This document shows, in pieces, positions 1,315 to 44,791 of a stretch of DNA of 45,319 nucleotides (positions within the stretch are counted from its first letter, which is position 1; the number at the start of each line of letters is the position of its first letter). Source of the DNA: Ruminococcus sp. (GTDB lineage Bacteria; Bacillota; Clostridia; Oscillospirales; Ruminococcaceae); the NCBI GenBank assembly GCA_017542125.1, contig JAFXXU010000010.1, positions 1 to 45,319 on the forward strand, read 5' to 3'. Both the position numbers and the translations under genes were made by a program. The notes below the pieces were generated by a model that made no database searches, was not told where the DNA came from, and saw only the letters and a program-made list of their open reading frames with translations.

Positions 1315-1415
1315 AATACATAACCTCCTATGTGATATTGACGGCGAAAACCGTCGATCTTTCGGGTCCGGATACGAATCGAACCGATAGGACAGCCTTT
1401 TGCTGCCTTAATTAT

Positions 1416-1443
1416 ATAATATCATATTTTTAGAAAAAAGCAA
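1416..1443 (-). promoter_or_regulatory. Likely ferredoxin promoter
   Basis: On the minus strand TTGCTT (1438-1443) and TATTAT (1416-1421) are 16 bases apart in A/T-rich DNA. This leaves an untranslated leader of about 95 bases before the ferredoxin ATG. Confidence 0.55.
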
Positions 1444-6086: not shown

Positions 6087-6162
6087 GAATTAGTAGCTCA
6101 GTCGGCAGAGCATTTGACTTTTAATCAAAGGGTCCGGGGTTCGAATCCCCGCTAGTTCACCA
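6087..6162 (+). tRNA. tRNA-Lys (anticodon TTT)
   Basis: The full cloverleaf can be drawn. The acceptor stem is GAATTAG with CTAGTTC, and the D-arm is GCTC/GAGC. The anticodon stem is TTTGA/TCAAA with loop CTTTTAA (anticodon TTT), and the T-arm is CGGGG-TTCGAAT-CCCCG. Discriminator A and an encoded CCA complete it. The gene has its own promoter and terminator. Confidence 0.97.
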
Positions 6163-6187
6163 GCAGGGGTACGCCCCTGCACCGATG

Positions 6188-6221
6188 CCTCCCTGTGCAG
6201 AAATGCACGGGGAGGTTTTTT
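6188..6221 (+). terminator. Terminator after tRNA-Lys
   Basis: CCTCCCTGTGCA pairs with TGCACGGGGAGG around a GAAA loop (one G-T pair), followed by TTTTTT. A second short hairpin (GCAGGGGTACGCCCCTGC) precedes it. Confidence 0.93.
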
Positions 6222-6263: not shown

Positions 6264-6292
6264 TTGACATTTACTGTCAGCGGTATTATAAT
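6264..6292 (+). promoter_or_regulatory. Promoter of the aroF attenuator
   Basis: TTGACA (6264-6269) and TATAAT (6287-6292) are 17 bases apart, about 20 bases before the leader-peptide ribosome binding site. Confidence 0.92.
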
Positions 6293-6320
6293 TACACCAT
6301 CAAACGAAAGGAACCGAACT

Positions 6321-6404
6321 ATGAAGCATCAGGGTTTTGTCTTTACATACGTCTTTTTCGGCTTTGGCTTTTTTGCTAAGGTCTTTTCGGCGTGTGTGAG
6401 CTAA
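6321..6404 (+). CDS. Phe-rich leader peptide of the aroF attenuator
   Basis: A 27-residue peptide with eight Phe and one Tyr, preceded by AAAGGA at a good distance. Phe residues are at positions 6, 8, 12, 13, 15, 17, 18 and 22. It has the composition of pheL/pheM-type leader peptides and lies between a consensus promoter and a terminator upstream of DAHP synthase. Ribosome stalling at Phe codons when charged tRNA-Phe is scarce should choose between the alternative RNA hairpins described in the attenuator entry. The peptide itself probably has no other role. Confidence 0.88.
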
Positions 6405-6467
6405 CCTAAAAGTGCAATCATCAGTTTGTACATCCAGCAGCTCGGACACCCCCGGGCTGCTTTTTTG
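6345..6467 (+). promoter_or_regulatory. Transcription attenuator controlling aroF
   Basis: Four segments fit classical attenuation. Segment 1 (6345-6351, ACATACG) pairs with the start of segment 2 (6391-6397, CGTGTGT). The rest of segment 2 (6394-6402, GTGTGAGCT) pairs with segment 3 (6439-6449, AGCTC-GG-ACAC). Segments 3 and 4 form a 10-bp terminator stem (6436-6445 with 6452-6461), followed by seven T residues. A ribosome stalled near Phe 12-13 would cover segment 1 and release segment 2 to block the terminator. A ribosome at the stop codon would cover segment 2 and let termination occur. The pairings are read by eye. Confidence 0.85.
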
Positions 6468-6495
6468 TTTGGCAAAAAACAACGGAGGTATCATT

Positions 6496-7509
6496 ATGGT
6501 AATCATCATCAAGGACAAGGCTACAGAGGAACAGGTAGGAGAGTTAATGGAATGGCTTCACGGGTTCAACGTGAAGACGAATCTGGTAACGGGCATCCAC
6601 TCGCGGATCATCGGCCTGATAGGCGACACCACCTCGATCGACATTGACGCGGTGCAGGCGAGGGAGATCGTCGAGGCAGTAAGGCGGGTGCAGGAGCCCT
6701 ACAAGAACGCCAACCGCCGCTTCCACCCGGACGACACGGTGATAGAAGTGGGCGGGAAGAAGATAGGCGGCGGCACCCTTTCCGTGATCGCGGGGCCCTG
6801 CTCTGTGGAGACCGAAGACCGGCTGATGCAGACGGCCCTTGCGGTCAAAGAGGCGGGAGCCGACTTCCTCCGGGGCGGAGCCTTCAAGCCCAGAACTTCC
6901 CCCTACGCATTCCAGGGCCTCGGCAAAGAGGGCATCGACCTGCTGATACAGGCCAGAAAAGAAACCGGCCTCCCCATAGTCACCGAGATAATGGATCTCT
7001 CCGACCTCGACCTCTTCGCCGATATCGACATCGTCCAGGTGGGGGCTAGAAATATGCAGAACTTCACCCTCCTGAAAGCCCTCGGCCGCTGCGACAAGCC
7101 CGTCCTGCTCAAAAGGGGCCTCTCCGCCACCCTCCAGGAGCTGCTCATGAGCGCAGAATATATAATGTCCGAGGGCAACAGCAAGGTCATCCTCTGCGAG
7201 CGGGGCATCCGCACCTTCGAGCCCGAGACCCGCAACACCCTTGACATCTCGGCAGTCCCCCTGCTCAGGCAGAAGACCCACCTTCCCATCGTCATCGACC
7301 CCTCCCACGCCACCGGCGTGGGCTCCCTCGTTGAGCCTATGGCGGTCTGCGCCGTGGCAGCCGGAGCCGACGCCCTGGAGATAGAGGTACACATCGACCC
7401 CAAAAGCGCCTGGAGCGACGGCGCCCAGTCCCTCACCCCCGCCCAGTTCACCTCCGCTATGAAGAAGATACGCGCTATGGAGCGCTTCTGCCGCGAGGAG
7501 CTCCGCTGA
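6496..7509 (+). CDS. aroF: 3-deoxy-7-phosphoheptulonate (DAHP) synthase, AroAbeta type
   Basis: A 337-residue enzyme that condenses phosphoenolpyruvate and erythrose 4-phosphate, the first step of the shikimate pathway. GGAGG lies seven bases before the ATG at 6496; earlier in-frame codons fall in the attenuator. Residues 1-70 form the small ferredoxin-like regulatory domain of the Thermotoga/Bacillus type, which in characterised relatives mediates feedback inhibition by Phe or Tyr. The catalytic barrel follows, with [37 protein letters not shown] and DPSHATG all intact. Control appears double: attenuation of the mRNA and allosteric inhibition of the protein. Confidence 0.95.
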
Positions 7510-7512
7510 CTA

Positions 7513-7541
7513 TTGCTATTTCGGCAGAAGTGTGATATAAT
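7513..7541 (+). promoter_or_regulatory. Internal promoter upstream of aroB
   Basis: TTGCTA (7513-7518) and TATAAT (7536-7541) are 17 bases apart, directly after the aroF stop codon. It would let aroB-aroA-nudix-aroC be expressed independently of the attenuator. Confidence 0.75.
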
Positions 7542-7564: not shown

Positions 7565-8689
7565 ATGATATTCAACTGTGAGCTCAGAAGAGTCATTGAC
7601 GACTCTTACGATATCGAGATAGGCAGAAAGCTCTGTGATACCCTCATCAGGGACGTGGAGAGCGGCCTGCTCGGAAAGACTAAAAATATTGCCATAATCA
7701 CCGACGACACCGTCGAGGTGCTCTATGTGTACGATATCCTCAGCAATCTCTTCGCCAAGGGATACAGAGTGCAGAAATTCGTTATCCCCGCCGGCGAAAA
7801 GTCCAAGACCCGCGAAATGAAGGCCAGGCTTGAGGATGAGATGCTCTCCGAGCGCTACAACCGGGACTGCGCAGTAATAGCCGTGGGCGGCGGAGTGGTC
7901 TCCGACCTGGCAGGCTTTCTGGCAGGTACCTTCGGCAGAGGCGTCCCCTTTATCACCTATGCCACCACCCTCCTTGCAGCGGCGGATGCCTCCGTCGGCG
8001 GCAAGACCGCGGTGGATACCCCCCTTGCCACCAACCTTATCGGTATGTTCAACCAGCCCCGCAAGGTCTATATCGACATCGACTGCTGGAAGACCCTCCC
8101 CGAGCGTCAGATAGCCAGCGGCCTCGCCGAGACCGTAAAGCACGCCTGCCTGGGTGATCTTGAAATGTTTGAGTACCTCGAAAAGCATACTGAGGGCATC
8201 TTTGAGGGCGACCCCGAAGCCTGCGAGTATATCGCCGAGCATAACTGCCGGGTGAAATACCGCGTCGTTATGCAGGACGAGCGCGAAAGCGGCCTGCGGG
8301 AGATACTCAACCTCGGCCATACCGTGGGCAGAGCCATCGAGACCGTCTCCGATTATAAGCTGCTCCACGGCGAGGCAGTAGCCATCGGCCTTGCAGCACA
8401 GGCAAGGCTGGGTCAGAAGCTGGGCTTCATCTCGGAGGAGAATGCCGTCCGGGTCGAGGCGCTGCTCAGACGGGCAAAGCTCCCCGTGACTATACCCGAT
8501 TACATCGACGTCTCCGAGCTTTGCCGGAAACTCTATACCGATAAAAAAGTCCGCGAGGGCAAGCTGCGGTTCGTCTTCCAGAAGGAGATAGGCAGCGTTA
8601 TGCAGTTCGGCGAGAACAGCTTCGCCATGCCCATAGCCGAGGAGGAGATAGCCGCCGTCCTCAGAGAAATGACCGGAGAGGTGCAGTAA
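7565..8689 (+). CDS. aroB: 3-dehydroquinate synthase
   Basis: A 374-residue NAD- and metal-dependent enzyme converting DAHP to 3-dehydroquinate. The NAD-binding glycine motif AVGGGVVSDLAGF (near residue 105) is present, as are TTLLAAADASVGGKTAVD and the metal-ligand regions SGLAETVKHA, LNLGHTVGRAIE and LLHGEAVAIG. Length is normal for the family. TAGGAGG precedes the ATG. The stop codon overlaps the aroA start (TAATG). Confidence 0.97.
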   Translation: MIFNCELRRVIDDSYDIEIGRKLCDTLIRDVESGLLGKTKNIAIITDDTVEVLYVYDILSNLFAKGYRVQKFVIPAGEKSKTREMKARLEDEMLSERYNRDCAVIAVGGGVVSDLAGFLAGTFGRGVPFITYATTLLAAADASVGGKTAVDTPLATNLIGMFNQPRKVYIDIDCWKTLPERQIASGLAETVKHACLGDLEMFEYLEKHTEGIFEGDPEACEYIAEHNCRVKYRVVMQDERESGLREILNLGHTVGRAIETVSDYKLLHGEAVAIGLAAQARLGQKLGFISEENAVRVEALLRRAKLPVTIPDYIDVSELCRKLYTDKKVREGKLRFVFQKEIGSVMQFGENSFAMPIAEEEIAAVLREMTGEVQ

Positions 8690-9915
8690 TGGATATTCTG
8701 ATAACACCCTCGCTGCTCCGCGGCAGCGTCACCGTCCCCGCCTCAAAGAGCGTGGCCCACAGGCTCATCATAGCCGCAGCCCTGGCAAAGGGCGAGTCGG
8801 TCATACATAACCTCTTCCCCTCAAAGGATATCTTAGCCACCGCCGAGGCTATGCGAGCCCTGGGCGCCGAAATAACCGTTGAGGGCGATACCGCCCGTAT
8901 AAAAGGCATCACCGAGCCCCCCGCCAAAGCCGTCATCGACTGCGGCGAAAGCGGCTCCACCCTCAGATTTATCATCCCCATAGCCGCAGCCCTCGGGGTA
9001 AAGACCACCTTCATCGGCCACGGCAAGCTGCCGGAAAGACCCATAACCCCCTACCTTGAAGAGCTCCCCCGCCACGGCGCGGAGTTCGACTACCCGGGGA
9101 CTATGCCCTTTACCCTATCCGGCAGGCTGGGTGCCGGCGAATACCGCATCGGCGGCGATATCAGCTCCCAGTTCATCACCGGCCTGCTGCTGGCACTGTC
9201 CGTCACCCCCGGCGAGAGCAGGATAATCCTCACCTCCCGCCTGGAAAGCCGCCCCTATGTGGATATCACCGCGGATTGCCTCGCCCGGTTCGGCTGCACC
9301 GTCACCGAGACCGAGGACGGCTTCGCTGTTTCCGGCACCGGCGCCCTGACCCCCTGCGAGTGTACCGTGGAGGGGGATTGGTCCCAGGCAGCCTTCTTTG
9401 AGACCGCCAATTCTCTGGGCAGCAGCCTCGAAATAAATGGACTGAATGTAAATTCAGCGCAGGGCGATAAAAAAATCCTTGAAATTTGCAAAGATATAGT
9501 GTATAATAAAAAGGGTATGCGGGCTCCCTTTGAGCTCGATTGCTCGGATATCCCCGATCTCGTGCCCATACTCTCCGTGCTGGCCTGCTTCAGTCAGGGC
9601 GAGAGCAGGCTCACCAACGCCGCCAGGCTCCGCATCAAGGAGTCGGACAGGCTGGCAGCGGTGACCAAGGCTCTTTGCGGCATCGGCGGCAGGGTCACGG
9701 AATATGAGGATATGCTGGTCATCCGGGGCGTGGAAGAGCTTGCGGGCGGCGAGGCCGAAAGCTTCAACGACCACCGTATCGCTATGGCTATGGCCATAGC
9801 CTCCACCAGATGCCGCGAGCCGCTCCTCATCCGAGGCGCCGAGTGCGTCTCAAAATCCTACCCCGGGTTCTGGGAGGAGTTCCGCCGTCTCGGCGGCAGC
9901 TTTGAGGAGGTATGA
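8689..9915 (+). CDS. aroA: 3-phosphoshikimate 1-carboxyvinyltransferase (EPSP synthase)
   Basis: A 408-residue enzyme that joins phosphoenolpyruvate to shikimate 3-phosphate. Substrate-binding motifs are SKSVAHRLIIAA near the N-terminus, CGESGSTLRFI, GKLPERPI, GDISSQFITGLLLA, LRIKESDRLAA and FNDHRIAMAMAIA. The ATG overlaps the aroB stop by one base, so translation is coupled. The CGESGSTLRF form is one often seen in Firmicutes. Length is slightly under the typical 430 but all key regions are present. Confidence 0.97.
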   Translation: MDILITPSLLRGSVTVPASKSVAHRLIIAAALAKGESVIHNLFPSKDILATAEAMRALGAEITVEGDTARIKGITEPPAKAVIDCGESGSTLRFIIPIAAALGVKTTFIGHGKLPERPITPYLEELPRHGAEFDYPGTMPFTLSGRLGAGEYRIGGDISSQFITGLLLALSVTPGESRIILTSRLESRPYVDITADCLARFGCTVTETEDGFAVSGTGALTPCECTVEGDWSQAAFFETANSLGSSLEINGLNVNSAQGDKKILEICKDIVYNKKGMRAPFELDCSDIPDLVPILSVLACFSQGESRLTNAARLRIKESDRLAAVTKALCGIGGRVTEYEDMLVIRGVEELAGGEAESFNDHRIAMAMAIASTRCREPLLIRGAECVSKSYPGFWEEFRRLGGSFEEV

Positions 9916-9918
9916 AAG

Positions 9919-10338
9919 GTGTCTGAGGGAAAGAGGATCCTCGGCGCCGCCGTCAGCATCATCTGCGACGACCGGGGCAGAGTCCTGCTGGTCAAGCGCT
10001 GCGACTGCGGCAAGTGGGGCATACCCGGCGGCCTTATGGAGTACGGCGAGACCCTGGAGCAGACCGCTGTCCGTGAGGCGAAGGAGGAGACCGGCCTCGA
10101 TATAGCCGTGGACGCCCTCTGCGGGATATACTCCGGCTATTTTTCAAGAACTACCGGCAATCAGCCCATAACCGCATCGTTCATCGCACATATTACGGGC
10201 GGCAGCCTTTACTGCGACCATGTCGAGACCGATGAGCTCGAATGGTTCGGCGCAGACAGCCTGCCCGAGATATACAGCGAGCAGCATAAGGCTATGCTCG
10301 CAGACTATTTCAGCGGCACCAGAGGCGTCTGGAGATAG
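9919..10338 (+). CDS. Nudix hydrolase
   Basis: A 139-residue Nudix protein, hydrolysing an unidentified nucleoside-diphosphate derivative. The Nudix box matches the consensus G-x5-E-x7-REUxEExGU exactly as GLMEYGETLEQTAVREAKEETGL in two adjoining parts (residues about 38-60). The start is a GTG with GAGGAGG eight bases upstream. It lies three bases after aroA and 26 before aroC, within the aromatic operon. A house-cleaning role is as likely as a pathway-specific one. Confidence 0.93.
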   Translation: MSEGKRILGAAVSIICDDRGRVLLVKRCDCGKWGIPGGLMEYGETLEQTAVREAKEETGLDIAVDALCGIYSGYFSRTTGNQPITASFIAHITGGSLYCDHVETDELEWFGADSLPEIYSEQHKAMLADYFSGTRGVWR

Positions 10339-10364: not shown

Positions 10365-11456
10365 ATGTCATCTACATGGAGCAACAGGATAAGCTTTTCT
10401 GTATTCGGAGAGAGCCATGGCCCCGCCATCGGCGTGTGCATAGATAACGTTCCCCCCGGGGAAAGCATTGATATGGATAAGCTGATGCAGTTCATGGCCA
10501 GGAGGGCTCCCAAGAAGGATCAGACCTCCACTCAGCGCAGGGAAAAGGATATGCCCCAGATCATGTCCGGCTATTTCAACGGCAAGACCACCGGCACACC
10601 CCTCTGCGCCTTCATCGCCAATACCGACCAGCATTCCACCGATTACCTCAAGCTCTCAAAGCTGGCCCGTCCCGGCCACGCCGATTATACCGGTGCCCTC
10701 AGATACAGGGGCTTCTCCGATCCCAGAGGCGGCGGCCATTTCTCCGGCAGGCTCACAGCCCCCCTCTGCTTCGCAGGTGCGGTGGCAGGCCAGATACTTG
10801 AAAGGCGCGGCATCTATGTGGGCGCCCATATCGCCGAGATACATAAGATCAAGGACGAGAGCTTCGATCCCATAAATACCTCCCGCGAGGATATCATAAC
10901 TCTCCGCAGCAAGGACTTCCCCACCATCAGCGAGCGCAAGGGCAGAATGATGATCAATGACATCGCCAAGGCCAGAGAGTGCCAGGACAGCGTGGGCGGA
11001 GTTGTCGAGTGCATCGCCATAAACGTCCCCGCAGGCGTGGGCTCCCCCATCTTTGACGGCCTGGAGAATTCCATAGCCCAGCTGATCTTCGGCATCCCCG
11101 CAGTAAAGGGTCTGGAGTTCGGCGCAGGCTTCAACGCCGCTAAAATGCTGGGCAGCGAGAATAACGACGAGTTCTATGTGAACGATCAGGGTCACGTAGT
11201 TACAAGAACAAATTACCACGGCGGCATCCTGGGAGGTATCTCCTCCGGTATGCCCATAACCCTCAGAGTGGCCTTCAAGCCCACCCCCTCCATAGCCAAG
11301 CCCCAGGAGACCGTTGATTATTCGGCTCTCAAAAACGAGACTATCGCTATCAAGGGCAGGCACGACCCCTGCGTGGTCCCCAGAGCAGTTCCCTGCGTTG
11401 AGGCCGCGGTGAATATCGCCCTGCTCAACCATATGCTCGATTACCCGAATTTCTGA
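10365..11456 (+). CDS. aroC: Chorismate synthase
   Basis: A 363-residue FMN-dependent enzyme that makes chorismate from EPSP, the last common step to Phe, Tyr and Trp. Family signatures FGESHGPAIGVCIDN (start), RGGGHFSGRLTAP in the middle and HDPCVVPRAVP near the C-terminus are intact. CGGAGG precedes the ATG. Genes for the intermediate steps (aroD, aroE, aroK) are not in this window. Confidence 0.97.
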   Translation: MSSTWSNRISFSVFGESHGPAIGVCIDNVPPGESIDMDKLMQFMARRAPKKDQTSTQRREKDMPQIMSGYFNGKTTGTPLCAFIANTDQHSTDYLKLSKLARPGHADYTGALRYRGFSDPRGGGHFSGRLTAPLCFAGAVAGQILERRGIYVGAHIAEIHKIKDESFDPINTSREDIITLRSKDFPTISERKGRMMINDIAKARECQDSVGGVVECIAINVPAGVGSPIFDGLENSIAQLIFGIPAVKGLEFGAGFNAAKMLGSENNDEFYVNDQGHVVTRTNYHGGILGGISSGMPITLRVAFKPTPSIAKPQETVDYSALKNETIAIKGRHDPCVVPRAVPCVEAAVNIALLNHMLDYPNF

Positions 11457-11478: not shown

Positions 11479-12057
11479 TTGGACAGCTCCTTCAACATCA
11501 CCTCCGATGTGTTCAATCCCATAAATGTCTATGAGGTCAAGATACTCCTGGCCTACTTCCTCAATAAGATAGAGCGCCCCGTAACTCCCGCCCAGCTGCT
11601 GGAGATCGCTACGGGTGATGGCGTCATCTCGTATTTCCTCTACGTCGAGGCCATCGAGCAGATGCTGAAAAACGGCACCCTGCGCCTCGAGGAGCGCGAG
11701 GGTACCGAGTATTACATCCTCACCGACGCAGGCCGGGAGGGCGCCGAGGATCTTAAAGGCTTAGTTAACAAAAGCGTCCGCGACAGGCTCTATGCCGCAG
11801 GACTCAAGCTCTTCGCCAAGCTCCGCGCCGAGCGGGAAACCAGGTTCGAGATAAAGGAGCAGGGCGCAGGCTTCACCGTAAGATGTGTCTGCGAGGACGC
11901 CGGCGTCACCCTTATGGATCTCACCCTCTTCGCCCCCGACAGAGAGCAGGCCGAGTATATAAAATCCAAGATCCTGATGAACCCCTCCGAGTTCTACAGC
12001 CGCGTCCTGGATTTCGTCATAGTCAACGAGGAATATGTCCCCGACATACGAGAGTAA
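11479..12057 (+). CDS. DUF4364 family protein, winged-helix-like
   Basis: A 192-residue protein matching my memory of DUF4364, a Firmicutes family with an N-terminal winged-helix-like region (about residues 20-90) and a C-terminal alpha/beta region. It starts at TTG, with AGAAGG seven bases upstream. It follows aroC by 22 bases and is probably the last gene of the operon, ended by the terminator at 12058-12081. Transcriptional regulation is plausible but unproven. Confidence 0.8.
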   Translation: MDSSFNITSDVFNPINVYEVKILLAYFLNKIERPVTPAQLLEIATGDGVISYFLYVEAIEQMLKNGTLRLEEREGTEYYILTDAGREGAEDLKGLVNKSVRDRLYAAGLKLFAKLRAERETRFEIKEQGAGFTVRCVCEDAGVTLMDLTLFAPDREQAEYIKSKILMNPSEFYSRVLDFVIVNEEYVPDIRE

Positions 12058-34994: not shown

Positions 34995-37900
34995 TCAATC
35001 GAAATAGGTCTCCTCATAGCCGGGCCACTCGGCGAAGTACTTGGCGAGGATGGAGAGATCTTCCAGGTCGGGGGCGCCGGAATTGTTGAGGTCGGCAGCC
35101 CGGACGTCTACGATCTCATCGAAGCCTGTCCACTCGGCGAAGTATTTGGCGAGGTCGGAGTAATCGCTGAGGTCAACAACGCCGTCGCGGTTGACGTCGC
35201 CTTTCTTGAAGGGCTTACCGGCGAGATCGAAGGCGAGGGCGGAATAGCAGCCCTCTGCGGCGCTGAAGCCGGGGATGAGGGTAGCCATCTGAACGGTCGT
35301 CTCCTTCATGGAGTCGGCGGGGAGGAGGATGATCTCGATGCCGGTGACAGAGCAGGTATCCAGGACGGTGATCATATCTGACAGGTCGGCGGGGGCGAGA
35401 TCAGACTTGACGAAGATATCAAAGTTATTGTCGTTATCGAGATCAAGCTTTACGCCGCGGGGGGAATCGGAGACGGTCTCATAGCCTACGATGCTTTCAT
35501 CGCTCAGGACGGCGAGGGCACAGAGGAACCTGAAATAATCGTTCCGGGAGGCAAAGGTATAGCTGCCTGACGAGAGGTCAAGGGTGAGGGTGCCGAGGTC
35601 GGGGATATACGCTTCTCCGGGGATGATCTTTGCTGCGGCGGCGACTGTGGTGCCGTCGCTGTTATAGACGGTGCCGCCGAAGTTGATACCGCCCTCGGGC
35701 TCGGCGATATGGCAGCCGATGAGGTCGAGCTCGGCGAGGTTATTGAAGGCGGCAGCGGTGGATCTCGCCTCGACGGCGGAGTTATTGATATTCAGCATTT
35801 CGGTACCGTGGTAGCCGGAGACGCCGTACTTGGCATTGAGGACCACATCGGCGTCCTTGATGGTGAGGTCATAGGTACTGAGGAGGAGGGCGGAGGTCTG
35901 GCCGGAGATAAGGGTCAGCTTGCCGGGGCCGGTGATGACGGTATAGCCCTGGAAGCGGGCGGCGGCCTGTGAGCCTCGTACCAGGACATCCTTATTTACC
36001 TTGACGGTAAGGCCGGAGATATAGCTTCTTATACCGAACTCTGCTCTGGGGGAGCTGATATTGCCGTTGAGCTCCAGGGTATTGGTGTCGGGGTCATAGG
36101 AGGCGGCGCTGTTTTCAAGGATATCATCCTTGTTGAGGGTATCGACCTGGCAGTCACCGACATAGAGGTCATACAGCTTATAGGGTTCGATGGTGATCTC
36201 CGGGGAGGGGGCGGAGCCGTTGCCGATATAATAGGACTTGGCATTGGAGTCATAGTAGACATAACTGCCGGAGGGCTGGGAGACGCGGCAGTCTGTCAGG
36301 GTTATGCCGTCGAGGTAGCCGATGCCGTTATATTCTGATTCGGCATAGACATTGGAGTTGTCGATAACGAGCTTGCTGCCGTTGCCGCCGCCGCAGATGC
36401 CGATAGTTCCTTTGAGAGCCACATTGGCGTCCTTGATGGTGAGGGTGGAGTCGCCGACATTGATGGCGACTTCTTTGTTGCTCGCGACGTTGAGCTTGCC
36501 GGGGCCTGTTACTGTGGTATCGCCGTAGGGGCAGAAGGCATTGGCTGTGACGGAACGCAGAACAAGGTTTTTATTCACCTTGACGGTGAGGCCCTCTATT
36601 TCGGAGAAGACGGCGGGGACGTCGCTCCCGAAAATGCTTGCGTTGAGCTCGAGGGTCTTGGTCGCGGGGTCGTAGACGGCTTCTTTCTTGCCGTTTCCGA
36701 GGACGTCGTCCTTATTGAGGTTGGTGACGCGGATGCCGGCTATGTTGAGGTCATACTCCTCGTAGGGGACGATCTCGACCTCCTCGGCGGAGGATCTGCC
36801 GTCGCCGATATACCAGGCTTTGGCGGTGGAATCGTAGTAGGTGGTGCCGCCTGCGGGGCGGATGATCTTGCAGCCTGTCAGATCTATGCCCCCGAGGTAG
36901 CCCACGCCGAAGATATCGGCGGAGGCGGTGAGGGTGGAGTTATTCACTTTGAGACTGCTGCCGGAGCCGCTGCCGCAGACGCCCATTTTACCGAAGAGAG
37001 CCACATTTGCGTCCTTGATCGTGAGGGTGGCACCGGCGTTGTTGATCGCCAGCTCATCCCTGCTCTTGACGGTGAGCTTGCCGGGGCCTGATACGGTAGT
37101 ATTGCCGTAGGGGCAGAAGGTATTGACGGTGGTGGATTCAAGGGTGAGATCCTTATTCACCCTGACGGTGAGGCCGTCTACCGTAGAGAACACGGCGGGG
37201 GCGTCCCCTGCGGAGATACTGCCGTTGAGCAGGAGGGTCTTGGTGGAGGGGACGTAGACGGCTTCTTTATTGCCGCTGCCGAGGATGTCGGAGCAGTTAT
37301 GGGCGGACACCTGGATACCGCCGACGGAGAGGTCGTATTTTTCGTAGGAGATCTTGGCTTGGGTGGCTTTTACTGTGCCGTTGCTGTTATAGATCGAGCC
37401 GTTTTGGTTAATGCCGCCGTTGGGTGAGACGATCTTGCAGCCTTCAAGTGTAAGGCCGCCGAATACAAAATCACATATTGCACCATCGGTGCTGTCGGCA
37501 TTTATTTCGGAATTCCTGATCGTGAGCTTTTCGTCTTTCGGCAGAGCCTTGATGCCCCATCTGCCTTTAACATCGACGCTTGCGCTGTCTATTGTCAGAT
37601 CGGCCTCGATGACCAATATGCCTGCACTGTAAGTGGATTCGGCTGTCAGCTTTCCTCGGCCTGTTATTGTCGTATCTCCCCTGAGCTGGAGTGCGTCTCT
37701 TAATTCTTCGGTTGCCCTAACGGTCACATCTTTGTTTACTTTGATAGTTAAGCCGTCAACATAATTGAGTATACCGTTTCTGTCGGCAGTCGGGATAATA
37801 TCCCCGTTAAGCTCAAGGGTCTTGGTTTTGGGGTCATAGCAGGCTTCGCCGTGACCGAGGATATCATTGCAGTTCTTGGGGGTCGCCTGGACACCTGCTA

Positions 37901-38621
37901 CTTTGAAATTATATATCAGGTCTTTTATTATTGACACTTCTTTGGCTAATGTGGTCAAGTCGCTTTCATAGATAGAGCTATTCTGGTATTCAGCATCGGC
38001 AGGAGAATCAATGACCGAGCCGGAAAGCACTATTTCATTTTTGATCCTGCATATCGCGCCTTTTTCACCGGCTGCGGTAACATCAGAATCATTGATCACA
38101 AGTCTTTCGGATATCATTCCCGGGATCTCTACACCTGTTGATGTATTCTCGCCGGCGATGCCGTAATTCTTTCCTCTTACCTCAACGGTCATATCATTTA
38201 TCGTTAAAGTCGTAAGGTTAAACACGCCAATTCCGATATTGTCACTTAATACGGTGAGTTTGCCGCTTCCGGAAATAGTTGTGGAATACTGCAGGTTCAG
38301 ACCATAATTATAACCTTTAACTGTAACATCATTGTTTACTATGATACGAAGTCCTCTGATATTATGCTCTATTCCGTTAGCATTTTTGGCGATGATATCC
38401 TTGTATAGATTAAGCGTCATTGAATCGTGATCAAAAGATGCTTCGCCGTTGCCGAGGATATCGTCGCAGTTCTCGCTCGTTACCTGTACTCCGGCAACAG
38501 TAACTGCATATCTGGACAGAGCCGCAGCCCGGAGGATGCCCTCGGGAAGCATACCGAGCATTGAGAGCGTCATGGCAAAGGCGGTGATGAGCGATGCCAT
38601 TCTTCTGCGTAACCTTATCAT
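34995..38621 (-). CDS. Secreted dockerin protein with five beta-helix-type repeats
   Basis: A 1208-residue secreted protein. I chose the ATG at 38621, preceded by GGGGAGGA. Residues 1-35 form a signal peptide (MIRLRRR, then a hydrophobic stretch ending near LRAAA). Five repeats of about 190 residues begin near residues 38, 238, 428, 620 and 815, each opening with a YDL.V.G.QV....DILG motif and continuing with LTVKVNKDV, T.I.GPGKLT, LTIKDA.V and L.GC.I..P. This resembles carbohydrate-binding beta-helix proteins of the Cthe_2159 kind. After a spacer, residues about 1136-1205 form a type I dockerin with calcium loops GDVNRDGVVDLSDY and ADLNNSGAPDLEDL, each followed by LAKYFAEW. It should bind a cohesin encoded elsewhere. 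Confidence 0.92.
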   Translation of the reverse strand: MIRLRRRMASLITAFAMTLSMLGMLPEGILRAAALSRYAVTVAGVQVTSENCDDILGNGEASFDHDSMTLNLYKDIIAKNANGIEHNIRGLRIIVNNDVTVKGYNYGLNLQYSTTISGSGKLTVLSDNIGIGVFNLTTLTINDMTVEVRGKNYGIAGENTSTGVEIPGMISERLVINDSDVTAAGEKGAICRIKNEIVLSGSVIDSPADAEYQNSSIYESDLTTLAKEVSIIKDLIYNFKVAGVQATPKNCNDILGHGEACYDPKTKTLELNGDIIPTADRNGILNYVDGLTIKVNKDVTVRATEELRDALQLRGDTTITGRGKLTAESTYSAGILVIEADLTIDSASVDVKGRWGIKALPKDEKLTIRNSEINADSTDGAICDFVFGGLTLEGCKIVSPNGGINQNGSIYNSNGTVKATQAKISYEKYDLSVGGIQVSAHNCSDILGSGNKEAVYVPSTKTLLLNGSISAGDAPAVFSTVDGLTVRVNKDLTLESTTVNTFCPYGNTTVSGPGKLTVKSRDELAINNAGATLTIKDANVALFGKMGVCGSGSGSSLKVNNSTLTASADIFGVGYLGGIDLTGCKIIRPAGGTTYYDSTAKAWYIGDGRSSAEEVEIVPYEEYDLNIAGIRVTNLNKDDVLGNGKKEAVYDPATKTLELNASIFGSDVPAVFSEIEGLTVKVNKNLVLRSVTANAFCPYGDTTVTGPGKLNVASNKEVAINVGDSTLTIKDANVALKGTIGICGGGNGSKLVIDNSNVYAESEYNGIGYLDGITLTDCRVSQPSGSYVYYDSNAKSYYIGNGSAPSPEITIEPYKLYDLYVGDCQVDTLNKDDILENSAASYDPDTNTLELNGNISSPRAEFGIRSYISGLTVKVNKDVLVRGSQAAARFQGYTVITGPGKLTLISGQTSALLLSTYDLTIKDADVVLNAKYGVSGYHGTEMLNINNSAVEARSTAAAFNNLAELDLIGCHIAEPEGGINFGGTVYNSDGTTVAAAAKIIPGEAYIPDLGTLTLDLSSGSYTFASRNDYFRFLCALAVLSDESIVGYETVSDSPRGVKLDLDNDNNFDIFVKSDLAPADLSDMITVLDTCSVTGIEIILLPADSMKETTVQMATLIPGFSAAEGCYSALAFDLAGKPFKKGDVNRDGVVDLSDYSDLAKYFAEWTGFDEIVDVRAADLNNSGAPDLEDLSILAKYFAEWPGYEETYFD

Positions 38622-38682
38622 TGAAATTCCTCCCCTGAAATGGTTTATGAACAAAATATCCGAAAAATATTAACCCAATATA

Positions 38683-40142: not shown

Positions 40143-40634
40143 ATGCTTGGAAGGATCCTTAAGCGGGCAGGGCTCGGTTTCCTGCTGGGGATGGCGATGG
40201 GAGATCTTATTGCCTATTTCACAGGCTCCGGCAGCGGGATGCCTGTCGCTCCGGAATTTGTGGACGCAGTCGGCAGCGAGGCTGCGGCGTTTCTGATACA
40301 GACGGTACTTTCGGGACTGATAGGCGCTGCGGGTTTCGGAGGTATGCTTTTCTACGAGATAGAGAGCTGGAGTATGCTGCGCACCATGCTGACCCATTTT
40401 GCACTTATCTCGGCGGTGTTCCTGGCGGTGAGCCGGATACTCTGCTGGATGACCGAGGTCAGCGAGATGCTGATCATGGAGGGCATAATGCTGGCGGCAT
40501 ACCTGGCAGTATGGGTGATAATATGTGCGGTGTACAGAGCACAGGTGAAGGATCTTAACGCCTTGCAGGACAGGCTAAACAAAAGCGGCAAGGGCGTAAA
40601 CAATAAATCTGTAAACGGAGGTGCGGAGAAATGA
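40143..40634 (+). CDS. DUF3021 family membrane protein
   Basis: A 163-residue protein with four hydrophobic segments (about 8-27, 42-66, 79-99 and 106-126) and a charged C-terminal tail. This is the DUF3021 pattern that accompanies LytTR regulators. I chose the ATG at 40143, eight bases after AAAGGAG. The stop overlaps the next gene start (ATGA). It is probably the sensory or inhibitory partner of the regulator. Confidence 0.88.
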   Translation: MLGRILKRAGLGFLLGMAMGDLIAYFTGSGSGMPVAPEFVDAVGSEAAAFLIQTVLSGLIGAAGFGGMLFYEIESWSMLRTMLTHFALISAVFLAVSRILCWMTEVSEMLIMEGIMLAAYLAVWVIICAVYRAQVKDLNALQDRLNKSGKGVNNKSVNGGAEK

Positions 40635-43600
40635 GATCAAAGAGGAAAAGGCTGTTTTCACGGGTGACTGCTGCTGTTGCGGCTGCGGTGATGCCCTTCA
40701 GTATGCTGCCGATGAGCGCTGTGGCTGAGGCCGGTTATTCCGAAGCGGCTGTTGCGGCGACGCCCATTGAAGTAAAGATGTCGGTCACAGGGCCGGGCGG
40801 CAGCGTTGATCCGAGTGTGGTGACAGCCAACGGACACCTTAGATCGGGGTTCTACACTGTCCCGATCAAGTTCAAAAACCCGAGGAAGAATGCCGAAAAC
40901 GAAGTGACCCTGACCGGCTGGTCAAGGAGCGGTAAGCAAAAGTATATCGTAGGTATGCCTGAAAGCGGCAATACCATTTGCCCGGCAGGCGACGGCGTTC
41001 CGGGGGGCAACAGCTTCACCGTGGATGAAAACGGTGTATGTACCCACGTTATGAATGTGCCGGTGCTGGGCTACTGGAGCCAGCAGAATATAATCAAGAC
41101 TGCTAATGATCTTACCCTGCACAAGCTGAAGCCGGATGAGGCTCCCGAAACGACCTTTGAAGATCTCACCGAGGCTATCGAAACAGAGCTGAAGGGCTTT
41201 GTGATACCGGAAAACTATGACAGCTATACTGCCGAGGCATTCAAGAAGATCGACGAGGACGAACAGAACGCACTGATCGAGGTAATAAACAAACCTCTGA
41301 TGCGGGTATATTCATCGGACGACCCGAGCAGCGAGCCTAAGCAGCTGACCGAATCGGAGGAAGCTGAGCTTATCGACACAGTCACCGATATGATGACTCT
41401 CGGCTGGGCTCCCAGCGCCGGCGTTGCCGAGGGCGACACCCTCACAGTTCAGCTGGAGGCCCTTTTCAACGAAGACGGAAGCTGGGTGCTTTCTCCCAAG
41501 ACCGAGCCCGTCAGCGTTGATGTAACTGTGGATAATTTCGGCAAGTTCTTCCCGGAAGACGAGCCCGCTTGCGAGCATGACGGCGAAGTGGAATACGAGT
41601 ATTCAAGCTATATGTTCCACAACAAGATCTGCGCCAAGTGTAAAAGCATAATTGAAATAGGTATCACTCATACAGCGACGGGCTTTACAGGCTATGATAC
41701 AGAAAAGCACTGGGATACCTGCACATACTGCAACCATTCGTTCAATGAAGAAACACATACTCTTTCATACAAGTATAATGACGACACCCACTGGCAGGAA
41801 TGCAGCGGCTGCGATTACAAGAGCGAGGCTGTGGGTCACGAATGGAATTGGATAATGGACACAGACGGAGTATATACCGGTCAGAAGTGCGAATGCGGTA
41901 AAACAAGAACGATCATCTCCGGTATTACCGACCTCAGCAAATCAGAGATCACTTTCCCCGAGGGCAAGGACGAGAACAGCGGGTTTACCAAGAGCGAAGC
42001 CGAAGATCTCGGACTTACGGACGACAAGGGTACAGCCGTTGACAAGGGCAGCTACACGGTAACGGTCGAAACGAGCAAGACCGATGACACCAGGTGGACG
42101 GTGGATTTCAAGTCTGTCGAGGACAAGAGCATTAACAGAAAGACCGCGGAGCTCATTAAGGCCTGCGAGCACGACGGCGATGTGGAATACGAGTATTCAA
42201 GCTATATGTTCCACAACAAGATATGTTCCAAGTGCAGATCGGTGCTTGAAACCGGCATAGCTCATACACCTACGGGCACCACAGGCTATGATACAGAAAA
42301 CCACTGGGATACCTGCACATACTGCAACCATTCGTTCAATGAAGAAGCACACACTCTTTCTTACAAGTTCACTGACGACACCCACTGGCAGGAATGCAGC
42401 GGCTGTGACTACAAGAGCGAGGCTGTGGGTCACGAGTGGAAATGGATACTGGACACAGACGGCACATATACCGGTCAGAAATGTGTATGCGGAGCAACAA
42501 GATCGATCATCCCCGGTATTGCCGACCTCGGAAAGTCAAGCATCGTACTCCCCGAGGGCAAGGACGGAAACAGCGAGTTCACCAAAGAGGAAGCCAAGAG
42601 CATAGGTCTCAAAGACGAGGACGGTCAGCCTATCGATAAGGGCAGCTACACTGTCACGGTAGAAAAGAACGAGAACGATGATACCAAGTGGACAGTCATC
42701 TTCAAGTCTGTTGAGGACAAGAGCATAGGCAAAAAAGAGATAACCGTTACGAGGCCCGAGGATACCTACTTTGCGGCTGTGACCTATGTTATGGCACAGG
42801 GTCTTACCCCTCCCGCGGACTTTATAGTATCCAAGGAGCAGACAGACCTCAAGAGCGGACAGAATTATTCCATAGAATCGCCCAAATACCCCGGTTTCAA
42901 GGCAAGCGATGCAGTGGTCATCGGCACTATCGGCAGCTCTGATGTGGAGATAACTGTCACCTATTCAGTCTGCGAGCACACGAATTACACTGTCACCGAC
43001 TTTATAAAGCCCACCTGCACCGAGGATTCCAAGGTCGTAATGGCAGCCTGCGACGACTGCGGCAAGGTGTTATCGCTCACAGCGGCGGAGATACACGCGC
43101 TGGGCGATCCTTATGTTGCAACAGGGCATAACTTCGACGACGAGTGGCACAGGGAGTACGGCATAAGCTCCAAGCCCGGCGCAGGGCATTATCACAAGTG
43201 CCAGAACCCCGGCTGCTACGAGCGCCAGTATGAGCCTCACACCTGGAAGGGCGAAACAAAGACCGGTACCAAGTGCGGCGTTGATCTGTGCTTTGAGGAC
43301 GAGTGTACGGTATGCGGTGCGACATACAGCTACGAGCCTGCCGAGTGCCAGCTTGAACGAGCTCCAGAGCTTGACGTTGCCCCCACCTGCGAGGAATACG
43401 GCTTTGAGAAGTATGTATGCACAGTATGCGGCAGTGAGGCCTCCGATGCAGTAGCTCCTCTGGGTCACGATCTGGAAGTGGTCGAGGAAGTAAAGGCTGA
43501 CTGTGAGACCGAGGGCTACAAGCTCAAGAAGTGCAAGCGCGAGGGCTGCGATCACGAGGAAAAGGAGATCATTGAAAAGCTCAGCAAGACCGGTCATCAC

Positions 43601-44791
43601 ACCTGGACGAAGAACATAAAGACCGAGCCCACCTGCGAGGGCGACGGCTCATACGAAGGTCAGATCTGCACGGTATGCGGCAAGACCGAGACCGCTATGG
43701 GCGATTACGGCATAATCGAGGCGCTGGGGCACAATGTGATAACCACAAAGAAAAATCTCGGCACCAAGCCCGGCGTCACAAGGGGCGGCACACCTGTTGA
43801 CATAACCCTGTACGAGGTGATCTATTCCTGCACACGCTGCAGAGCGCATCTCGGAACCGAGGCATGGACGGTGGTAACAGCCTCCAAGCCCCCGAGGTAT
43901 GAGATAATCCCCGGACGCAAGGCGGAGATAACCGAAATGGGCAACGGCATCCACATTGGCGGCAATATGGCTCAGGACGGCGGCGTATATTTCAGAGATC
44001 AGGTCATGAAGGGCTTTGACGATGTTGTTGACTCGGAGGCTGCAAAGAGCAAATATCAGTACAAGAAGATCAAAGCAAACAGCTTTATAATAGAGTTTGC
44101 GGACTCATTCCTTGAAGAGCTGGAGGACGGGGTATATCCTGTTGAGGTAATAAACGGCAGCGAGTTCTGGCCGCTTATGGTAACTGTAAAGGATCACAAA
44201 CTTACAGAGCTTGCAGATCAGGAATACCCCAAGGAGACACAGCTCACAAACGAGGAATTTGCAAAGCTTCTGGAGGAGGTCAAAGCCGAGGATGCAGAAG
44301 TGAAGACATTATTCGTCACACCTCTGACCGAGGAGGATCTTACGGACATCCGGGATCTTGTACAGCCTTCTCTTGATAAGGATTCGGCAGAGTTTGACAA
44401 AAACGCTCCGGCAGATACAGTTATCGCCGTGACCGAAGGAGACTTCCGGTTCGATTCCGTATCCCTGGGCGGAGAAGCTTTGGCAGACTCAGATTACAGC
44501 TATGCGGAGGGCAAGCTTACCGTAAGCTCTGGATATCTGAAGACTCTGGACGAGGGCGAGTATGTATTCAGCATACGGTTCACAGACAAAAACGAGGCGA
44601 CCGATCCGGCTGAACTCACGCTCACGGTAACAGTCGCTGACAGCAGCACTCCCGACAGCGGCAATACCGATGACTCAGGCTCCGGCGGCGAAGGAGATTC
44701 AAAGAATCCCGCCACAGGCGGAGCGGCTTCTCTGCTTGGAACAGCAGCCCTGCTCGCAGGAGTATTCGTTGTTTCAAAGAAGAGAAAATGA
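40631..44791 (+). CDS. Large surface protein with CxxC repeats, X2-like domain and NPATG sorting signal
   Basis: A 1386-residue exported protein. Residues 1-33 are a signal peptide (basic start, hydrophobic core, then SAVAEA). Two near-identical 198-residue units begin near 314 and 512 (DNA period 594 bp), each with four CxxC-type pairs, HWDTCTYCNHSFNE and HWQECSGCDYKSEAVGHEW. About five further CxxC modules follow to residue 1050. A region near 1265-1340 (FRFDSVSLGGEAL, LTVSSGYLKTLDEGEYVF) resembles an X2 module. The C-terminus has NPATG (1359-1363), a hydrophobic helix and KKRK, the layout of a sortase substrate. It is the last and largest gene of the LytTR operon, so its display is probably regulated by that system. 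Ligand unknown. Confidence 0.9.
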   Translation: MRSKRKRLFSRVTAAVAAAVMPFSMLPMSAVAEAGYSEAAVAATPIEVKMSVTGPGGSVDPSVVTANGHLRSGFYTVPIKFKNPRKNAENEVTLTGWSRSGKQKYIVGMPESGNTICPAGDGVPGGNSFTVDENGVCTHVMNVPVLGYWSQQNIIKTANDLTLHKLKPDEAPETTFEDLTEAIETELKGFVIPENYDSYTAEAFKKIDEDEQNALIEVINKPLMRVYSSDDPSSEPKQLTESEEAELIDTVTDMMTLGWAPSAGVAEGDTLTVQLEALFNEDGSWVLSPKTEPVSVDVTVDNFGKFFPEDEPACEHDGEVEYEYSSYMFHNKICAKCKSIIEIGITHTATGFTGYDTEKHWDTCTYCNHSFNEETHTLSYKYNDDTHWQECSGCDYKSEAVGHEWNWIMDTDGVYTGQKCECGKTRTIISGITDLSKSEITFPEGKDENSGFTKSEAEDLGLTDDKGTAVDKGSYTVTVETSKTDDTRWTVDFKSVEDKSINRKTAELIKACEHDGDVEYEYSSYMFHNKICSKCRSVLETGIAHTPTGTTGYDTENHWDTCTYCNHSFNEEAHTLSYKFTDDTHWQECSGCDYKSEAVGHEWKWILDTDGTYTGQKCVCGATRSIIPGIADLGKSSIVLPEGKDGNSEFTKEEAKSIGLKDEDGQPIDKGSYTVTVEKNENDDTKWTVIFKSVEDKSIGKKEITVTRPEDTYFAAVTYVMAQGLTPPADFIVSKEQTDLKSGQNYSIESPKYPGFKASDAVVIGTIGSSDVEITVTYSVCEHTNYTVTDFIKPTCTEDSKVVMAACDDCGKVLSLTAAEIHALGDPYVATGHNFDDEWHREYGISSKPGAGHYHKCQNPGCYERQYEPHTWKGETKTGTKCGVDLCFEDECTVCGATYSYEPAECQLERAPELDVAPTCEEYGFEKYVCTVCGSEASDAVAPLGHDLEVVEEVKADCETEGYKLKKCKREGCDHEEKEIIEKLSKTGHHTWTKNIKTEPTCEGDGSYEGQICTVCGKTETAMGDYGIIEALGHNVITTKKNLGTKPGVTRGGTPVDITLYEVIYSCTRCRAHLGTEAWTVVTASKPPRYEIIPGRKAEITEMGNGIHIGGNMAQDGGVYFRDQVMKGFDDVVDSEAAKSKYQYKKIKANSFIIEFADSFLEELEDGVYPVEVINGSEFWPLMVTVKDHKLTELADQEYPKETQLTNEEFAKLLEEVKAEDAEVKTLFVTPLTEEDLTDIRDLVQPSLDKDSAEFDKNAPADTVIAVTEGDFRFDSVSLGGEALADSDYSYAEGKLTVSSGYLKTLDEGEYVFSIRFTDKNEATDPAELTLTVTVADSSTPDSGNTDDSGSGGEGDSKNPATGGAASLLGTAALLAGVFVVSKKRK
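41591..42778 (+). repeat. Two tandem 594-bp coding repeats
   Basis: The stretch starting GAATACGAGTATTCAAGC recurs at 41591 and 42185, with long identical blocks between. The copies are close enough at DNA level to have arisen by recent duplication or gene conversion and could recombine to change repeat number. Confidence 0.85.

Follow-up and report, generated by a model that had tools for sequence, protein, structure and literature searches.

The aroF gene of a Ruminococcus sp. (contig JAFXXU010000010.1; 'the window' is the whole stretch of 45,319 nt analysed) encodes DAHP synthase, the gate to the shikimate pathway and hence to Phe, Tyr and Trp. Judged from its sequence, the leader in front of this gene is very likely a transcription attenuator worked by the ribosome, which senses the charging of Phe-tRNA and controls aroF, and perhaps also the aroB-aroA-nudix-aroC genes. 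The predicted attenuator architecture is conserved in the genus and in many families of Clostridia.

Results

Layout of the leader in the window

All leader elements lie on the + strand. The leader transcript has a promoter, TTGACA-17-TATAAT, at 6264–6292 (12/12 consensus matches), upstream of which lie a tRNA-Lys gene (6087–6162) and its terminator (6187–6216); transcription probably starts near 6299. A ribosome binding site (RBS), AAAGGA (6307–6312), stands 8 nt ahead of the ATG at 6321 of a leader peptide ORF (6321–6404) with 27 codons and a TAA stop at 6402–6404, the translation of which has 8 Phe and 1 Tyr in 27 residues. Helix analysis together with the genus alignment placed segment 1 at 6343–6353, with segment 2 as its partner, and segment 2 at 6389–6402, with either 1 or 3 as partner. 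Segment 3 (6436–6451) is made up of the 5′ arm of an intrinsic terminator (6436–6445) plus loop bases serving the antiterminator, and segment 4 (6452–6461) is the terminator 3′ arm, leading into a U-rich tract (6461–6470). Three mutually exclusive helices result: 1:2 (6343–6353 with 6389–6399, plus an inner helix), 2:3 (6389–6402 with 6439–6451) and 3:4 (6436–6445 with 6452–6461). The terminator, ten pairs within 6436–6461 and then a T run, is placed between the leader ORF and aroF, the first gene. The consensus promoter, the RBS and 27-codon ORF with its eight Phe codons, the strong terminator, and three mutually exclusive pairings in the order 1:2, 2:3, 3:4 had all been claimed in an earlier note on this DNA, and all were located here.

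Chance is an unlikely origin of this leader: an ORF beginning with ATG and equally dense in Phe (6 within 12 residues) arose in only 5/5000 dinucleotide shuffles of 6293–6495, and the leader RNA (6300–6475) folded with a z of −6.2, none of 200 shuffles being equally stable. The 2:3 pairing of the window was by itself unexceptional against shuffles (p 0.10), and the case for it therefore rests on its conservation.

The aroF gene (6496–7509, +) encodes a PRK08673-type DAHP synthase that carries an N-terminal ferredoxin-like domain (PF18152), through which allosteric control might act as a second layer, as the earlier note supposed. Behind it on the same strand lie aroB (3-dehydroquinate synthase, 7565–8689), aroA (3-phosphoshikimate 1-carboxyvinyltransferase, 8689–9915), a NUDIX-domain gene within the aro cluster (9919–10338) and aroC (chorismate synthase, 10365–11456), and aroB is probably transcribed together with aroF. 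A promoter-like sequence, TTGCTA-17-TATAAT in which TG precedes the second hexamer, was seen between aroF and aroB at 7513–7541, so the genes behind aroF may own a second, unattenuated promoter. A DUF4364 gene (11479–12057) follows the cluster. Further along, two very large ORFs (34995–38654, −, and 40631–44791, +) carry dockerin and CBM_X2 domains, as is typical of cellulosome-bearing Ruminococcus.

How the leader would work

With Phe-tRNA charged, a ribosome would reach the stop codon (6402) and sit over segment 2; segment 2 being covered, 3:4 would form and RNA polymerase would stop near 6467. Were Phe-tRNA short, the ribosome would stall within codons 12–18 and block 1:2, leaving segment 2 to pair with segment 3 before segment 4 is made, and transcription would enter aroF. 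If the leader were not translated, 1:2 would form and termination would follow. The corresponding leaders of relatives would respond to Phe plus Tyr, and sometimes Trp. Working as drawn, the leader would demand that ribosome and RNA polymerase be coupled there; such tight coupling of transcription and translation is in doubt for some Gram-positives, which counts against the attenuator reading.

Conservation within the genus

Eight congeneric aroF leaders, aligned over 206 columns, kept the Phe-rich ORF and all three pairings. Paired cells made up 95.8% (1:2), 94.6% (2:3) and 97.5% (3:4) of the alignment at the helices, compared with at most 57.7% for slid versions of the same helices, and AAGG/AGGA-like runs preceded the leader ATG in the aligned congeners. 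Changes on both sides of a pair were seen in 1, 2 and 1 pairs of 1:2, 2:3 and 3:4 respectively, the covariation score was equalled in 74, 21 and 251 of 500 shuffles, and shifting 3:4 by +1 column gave a higher score than the true register. Among such close sequences, covariation within the genus is thus weak; of the two kinds of support that the earlier note had proposed to look for in aligned leaders, conserved Phe content was found, and covariation was slight.

The codons GTC TTT ACA TAC (Val-Phe-Thr-Tyr) around segment 1 were invariant in the eight congeners even at third positions, while the part of the peptide before them varied; FTY was unchanged across 13 leaders. Two gaps in the body of the ORF were whole codons of 3 nt, whereas most of those in the segment 2–3 linker had other lengths. 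In one congener (L083) the peptide tail was longer, and a 4-base gap fell at the ORF end.

Phe/Tyr leaders beyond the genus

A leader was scored where an ORF beginning with ATG, and having at least 6 Phe/Tyr within a stretch of 12 residues, lay no more than 450 bases upstream of aroF. In a related set that combined the window and 11 genus loci with the best 80 of 593 matches (92 loci kept, with duplicates L001 and L086 dropped), such leaders preceded 67/92 aroF genes, compared with 1.0% for shuffles and 1.1% for reverse strands. A wider class sample was taken from 196 Clostridia genomes, at least 90% complete and evenly spread over the class; 150 of them had a match, and the analysis covered 129 loci in 110 genomes. 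Since these loci ranked highest in similarity to the window AroF, leaving out partial matches, one contig-edge match and lower-ranked rows, the class sample is skewed to close AroF proteins. Within it, leaders were found at 66/129 aroF genes (2.0% of shuffles), in 66/110 genomes and 32/47 families. The orthologous comparison thus went the way the earlier note had expected, the congeners keeping the Phe-rich ORF and the pairings and many Clostridia relatives having the same layout.

The shuffles imply chance leaders at approximately 1–2% of loci, and the leaders of L175 and L190 appear to be among them; conversely, leaders just below threshold (such as those of L046, L058, L074, L128 and L191) were scored as leaderless. 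In 19 genomes with two examined aroF copies, one copy had a leader in 5 and both copies in none. A second aroF, approximately 60% identical to that of the window, was seen in three genomes in or near the genus (L093, L094 and L034), with no Phe/Tyr leader above threshold at these copies. On an AroF tree of 117 rows, for which the leader threshold was lowered to 5, the leader label changed 19 times, compared with a shuffled mean of 23.8 (2/500 shuffles as low), indicating that the leaders are distributed patchily and cluster weakly.

Most leaders mix their aromatic codons. At least 2 Phe and at least 2 Tyr codons were present in 122/133 leaders from both sets, and a Trp codon in 37/133, including that of Clostridium magnum (L066); at least 3 Phe with at most 1 Tyr occurred in 8/133, the window included, and Tyr with at most 1 Phe in 3/133. 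Mainly-Phe sensing therefore suits the window and only a handful of other loci. The proposal in the earlier note that Phe-tRNA charging is the signal is favoured for the window by the comparative tests; in most relatives the signal would be Phe together with Tyr.

Antiterminator pairing across loci

The segment after the codon run paired with the terminator 5′ arm (2:3) better than shuffled segments did (p < 0.05) in 26/65 loci, where approximately 3 were expected, with 39/65 missing this mark; 1:2 had a z below −2 in only 18/65. The ribosome geometry, with segment 2 covered at the stop codon and free at the regulatory codons, fitted 61/65 loci. For a swap test, 220/221 upstream regions were kept (one duplicate removed), and 128 leader loci were used, five being left out (four had no terminator, and in one the spacer was too short). 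Terminator 5′ arms preferred their own upstream segment, with a mean 2:3 energy of −12.6 kcal/mol against −8.8 kcal/mol for swapped partners, and this held when each of 30 families contributed a single locus (20 draws: own −11.6, swapped −8.2 kcal/mol, z −7.1 to −8.4).

A heptamer, TGCTGCA, was seen in segment 2 at 16/128 loci, compared with 0.7% of shuffles, in differing reading frames or past the stop codon. It is perhaps a nucleotide-level antiterminator element common to part of the leader loci; as a defining motif of the family it was rejected, being too rare.

In a folding model with the ribosome placed on the last aromatic codon, at the stop, or absent, the terminator 5′ arm was paired upstream with average probabilities of 0.63 (stalled), 0.36 (stop) and 0.47 (no ribosome) over the 128 loci; shuffled upstream regions gave 0.50, 0.39 and 0.55. 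The difference between stalled and stop is partly due to the shorter free RNA, and the shuffles show part of it too. Pairing in the stalled state exceeded that without a ribosome by more than 0.1 in 78/128 loci and was lower in 7, in agreement with what protection by 1:2 would predict, and the shuffle averages ran the opposite way. In the window itself the terminator remained at 0.90–0.99 at equilibrium whatever the ribosome position, so that equilibrium folding alone gives no switch there, and the switch must be kinetic, acting during transcription. Placing the ribosome right on the stop codon of the window gave an ambiguous outcome, segment 3 still being paired at 0.57, compared with 0.09–0.10 two to five codons earlier.

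That the equilibrium terminator persists at every ribosome position is also what would be seen if the leader were translated and read out elsewhere, with a constitutive terminator or with the ribosome acting on the translation or reinitiation of aroF. We consider this very unlikely. The aroF RBS (GGAGG, 6484–6488, +) lies outside all three helices, and the preference of terminator arms for their own upstream segments speaks against it, as do the terminators behind the codon run. At −7 kcal/mol or better these were found at 65/67 related and 64/66 class loci (129/133 in total), although this mark is loose, 40.2% of shuffles passing it; at −12 kcal/mol, 94.5% of the 128 leader loci had one, compared with 9.8% of shuffles.

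Aptamer, RNA-only and T-box readings

It is highly improbable that the leader RNA is an aptamer binding phenylalanine or another metabolite directly, with the ORF incidental. A fold far more stable than its shuffles, and the third-position invariance around segment 1, are features such an RNA might have; set against them, the window leader matched no Rfam release 15 family at the gathering score, the features that recur in the wider relatives are dense Phe/Tyr codons, an RBS and terminator/antiterminator logic, and the two gaps in the ORF body are whole codons. Nor was any Rfam match found over the leader at the 46/133 leader loci scanned (the window and 45 others). At one locus, L077, the sRNA family Clostridiales-2 (RF02937, 80 bits) was seen at 1351–1431 (+), in the interval that separates the attenuator terminator from aroF; it was absent from 19 other loci scanned.

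We give scarcely any credence to a chance ORF lying on a U-rich RNA element, in which UUU codons serve the RNA only. Phe codons are indeed U-rich and the helices overlap the ORF, but the whole-codon gaps are against it, and in the relatives Tyr was enriched at least as strongly as Phe: single amino acids exceeded the shuffle threshold at 32/92 loci for Tyr and 15/92 for Phe, with at most 3/92 for any other, and Leu, Ile and Ser were not enriched. An RBS-like sequence, moreover, preceded 90/128 leader ATGs, compared with 9.9% of other ATGs.

A T-box reading tRNA-Phe without translation is almost certainly not what controls this gene: T-boxes do precede some clostridial aroF genes and the window's own genome has 11 candidates, one of them before trpE, but no T-box (RF00230) reached the Rfam cut-off in the window, the own-genome search gave no candidate at this place, and the motif was present in 0/133 leader-bearing loci. 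T-box, riboswitch and RNA-only readings of the leader were accordingly rejected.

Five of the 11 own-genome candidates were above the cut-off, the genes behind them including a TrpB-like gene, asnS and hisS; trpE, alaS and two ilvA-type genes lay behind candidates below it. At leaderless aroF loci, T-boxes above the cut-off and on the aroF strand were found in 13/63 of the class sample and 0/25 of the related set, and hence at 13/88 altogether (L206, L214, L220, L228, L232, L239, L240, L241, L243, L244, L248, L249 and L250). Leader and T-box thus appear to be alternative solutions at aroF. In the class sample the leader was the commoner, at 66 against 13 of 129 loci. The earlier note had set the leader against a Firmicutes preference for T-boxes or TRAP at aromatic operons; in these counts the leader outnumbers the T-box, and an aroF leader peptide is no oddity for a Gram-positive.

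Discussion

Leader-peptide attenuation is best known from Proteobacteria. The E. coli pheL-pheA attenuator has Phe codons and a 1:2/2:3/3:4 logic like those proposed for the window, and controls pheA. The genus of the window differs in this respect: 15 of 16 pheA loci were examined, one being without upstream sequence, and a Phe/Tyr leader was present in 0/14 loci with upstream sequence (one with 228 bases only), so pheA was rejected as a second leader target there. The E. coli attenuator is mentioned in PMC11802643, which also describes aroR, a Phe-Tyr-Phe leader before aroF in Corynebacterium glutamicum, where transcription rises when Phe is limiting (Neshat et al. 2014, as given in PMC11802643) and Tyr supply is stated to be without effect. 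By this description aroR resembles the window in having a leader peptide ahead of a DAHP synthase operon, but its host is an actinobacterium, whereas the window is clostridial; leader-peptide attenuation has been predicted for several Actinobacteria operons, according to PMC1262725.

Similar in layout, again going by its description, is uORFC-13-1, a computational prediction reported from Acholeplasma and environmental sequences, in which a uORF with at least one Phe codon, a promoter, an RBS and a terminator precede aroF, as in the window (PMC8632094). Listeria Rli60 and Staphylococcus aureus ilv are described as experimentally examined leader-peptide attenuators with antiterminator and terminator (PMC5864092, PMC5794164); they share Gram-positive leader-peptide attenuation with the window but concern branched-chain amino acids and ilv-leu operons. 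Leaders of his operons have been predicted in Eubacteriales, Erysipelotrichales and the Bacillus cereus group, 17 species being given, as classical attenuators where the operon is without T-box or repressor control, and these concern histidine, not aroF (PMC9413887). No description of a clostridial aroF leader attenuator was found in the openly licensed PubMed Central literature.

The interest of the window leader lies in the breadth of the clostridial leader family and in its mixed Phe/Tyr codons. Taken together, the comparisons point to what is probably a Clostridia-wide family of aromatic leader-peptide attenuators at the entry to the shikimate pathway, with the T-box as an alternative and codons retuned by lineage, the window being tuned mainly to Phe, most others to Phe and Tyr, and 37/133 also to Trp. 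If that is true, one RNA switch pools the charging of two or three tRNAs. Should the leaders work in this way, many Clostridia would gate shikimate entry through a translating ribosome that reads charged tRNAs, and the leaders would offer a natural test both of transcription-translation coupling in Clostridia and of the integration of several amino acids by one leader.
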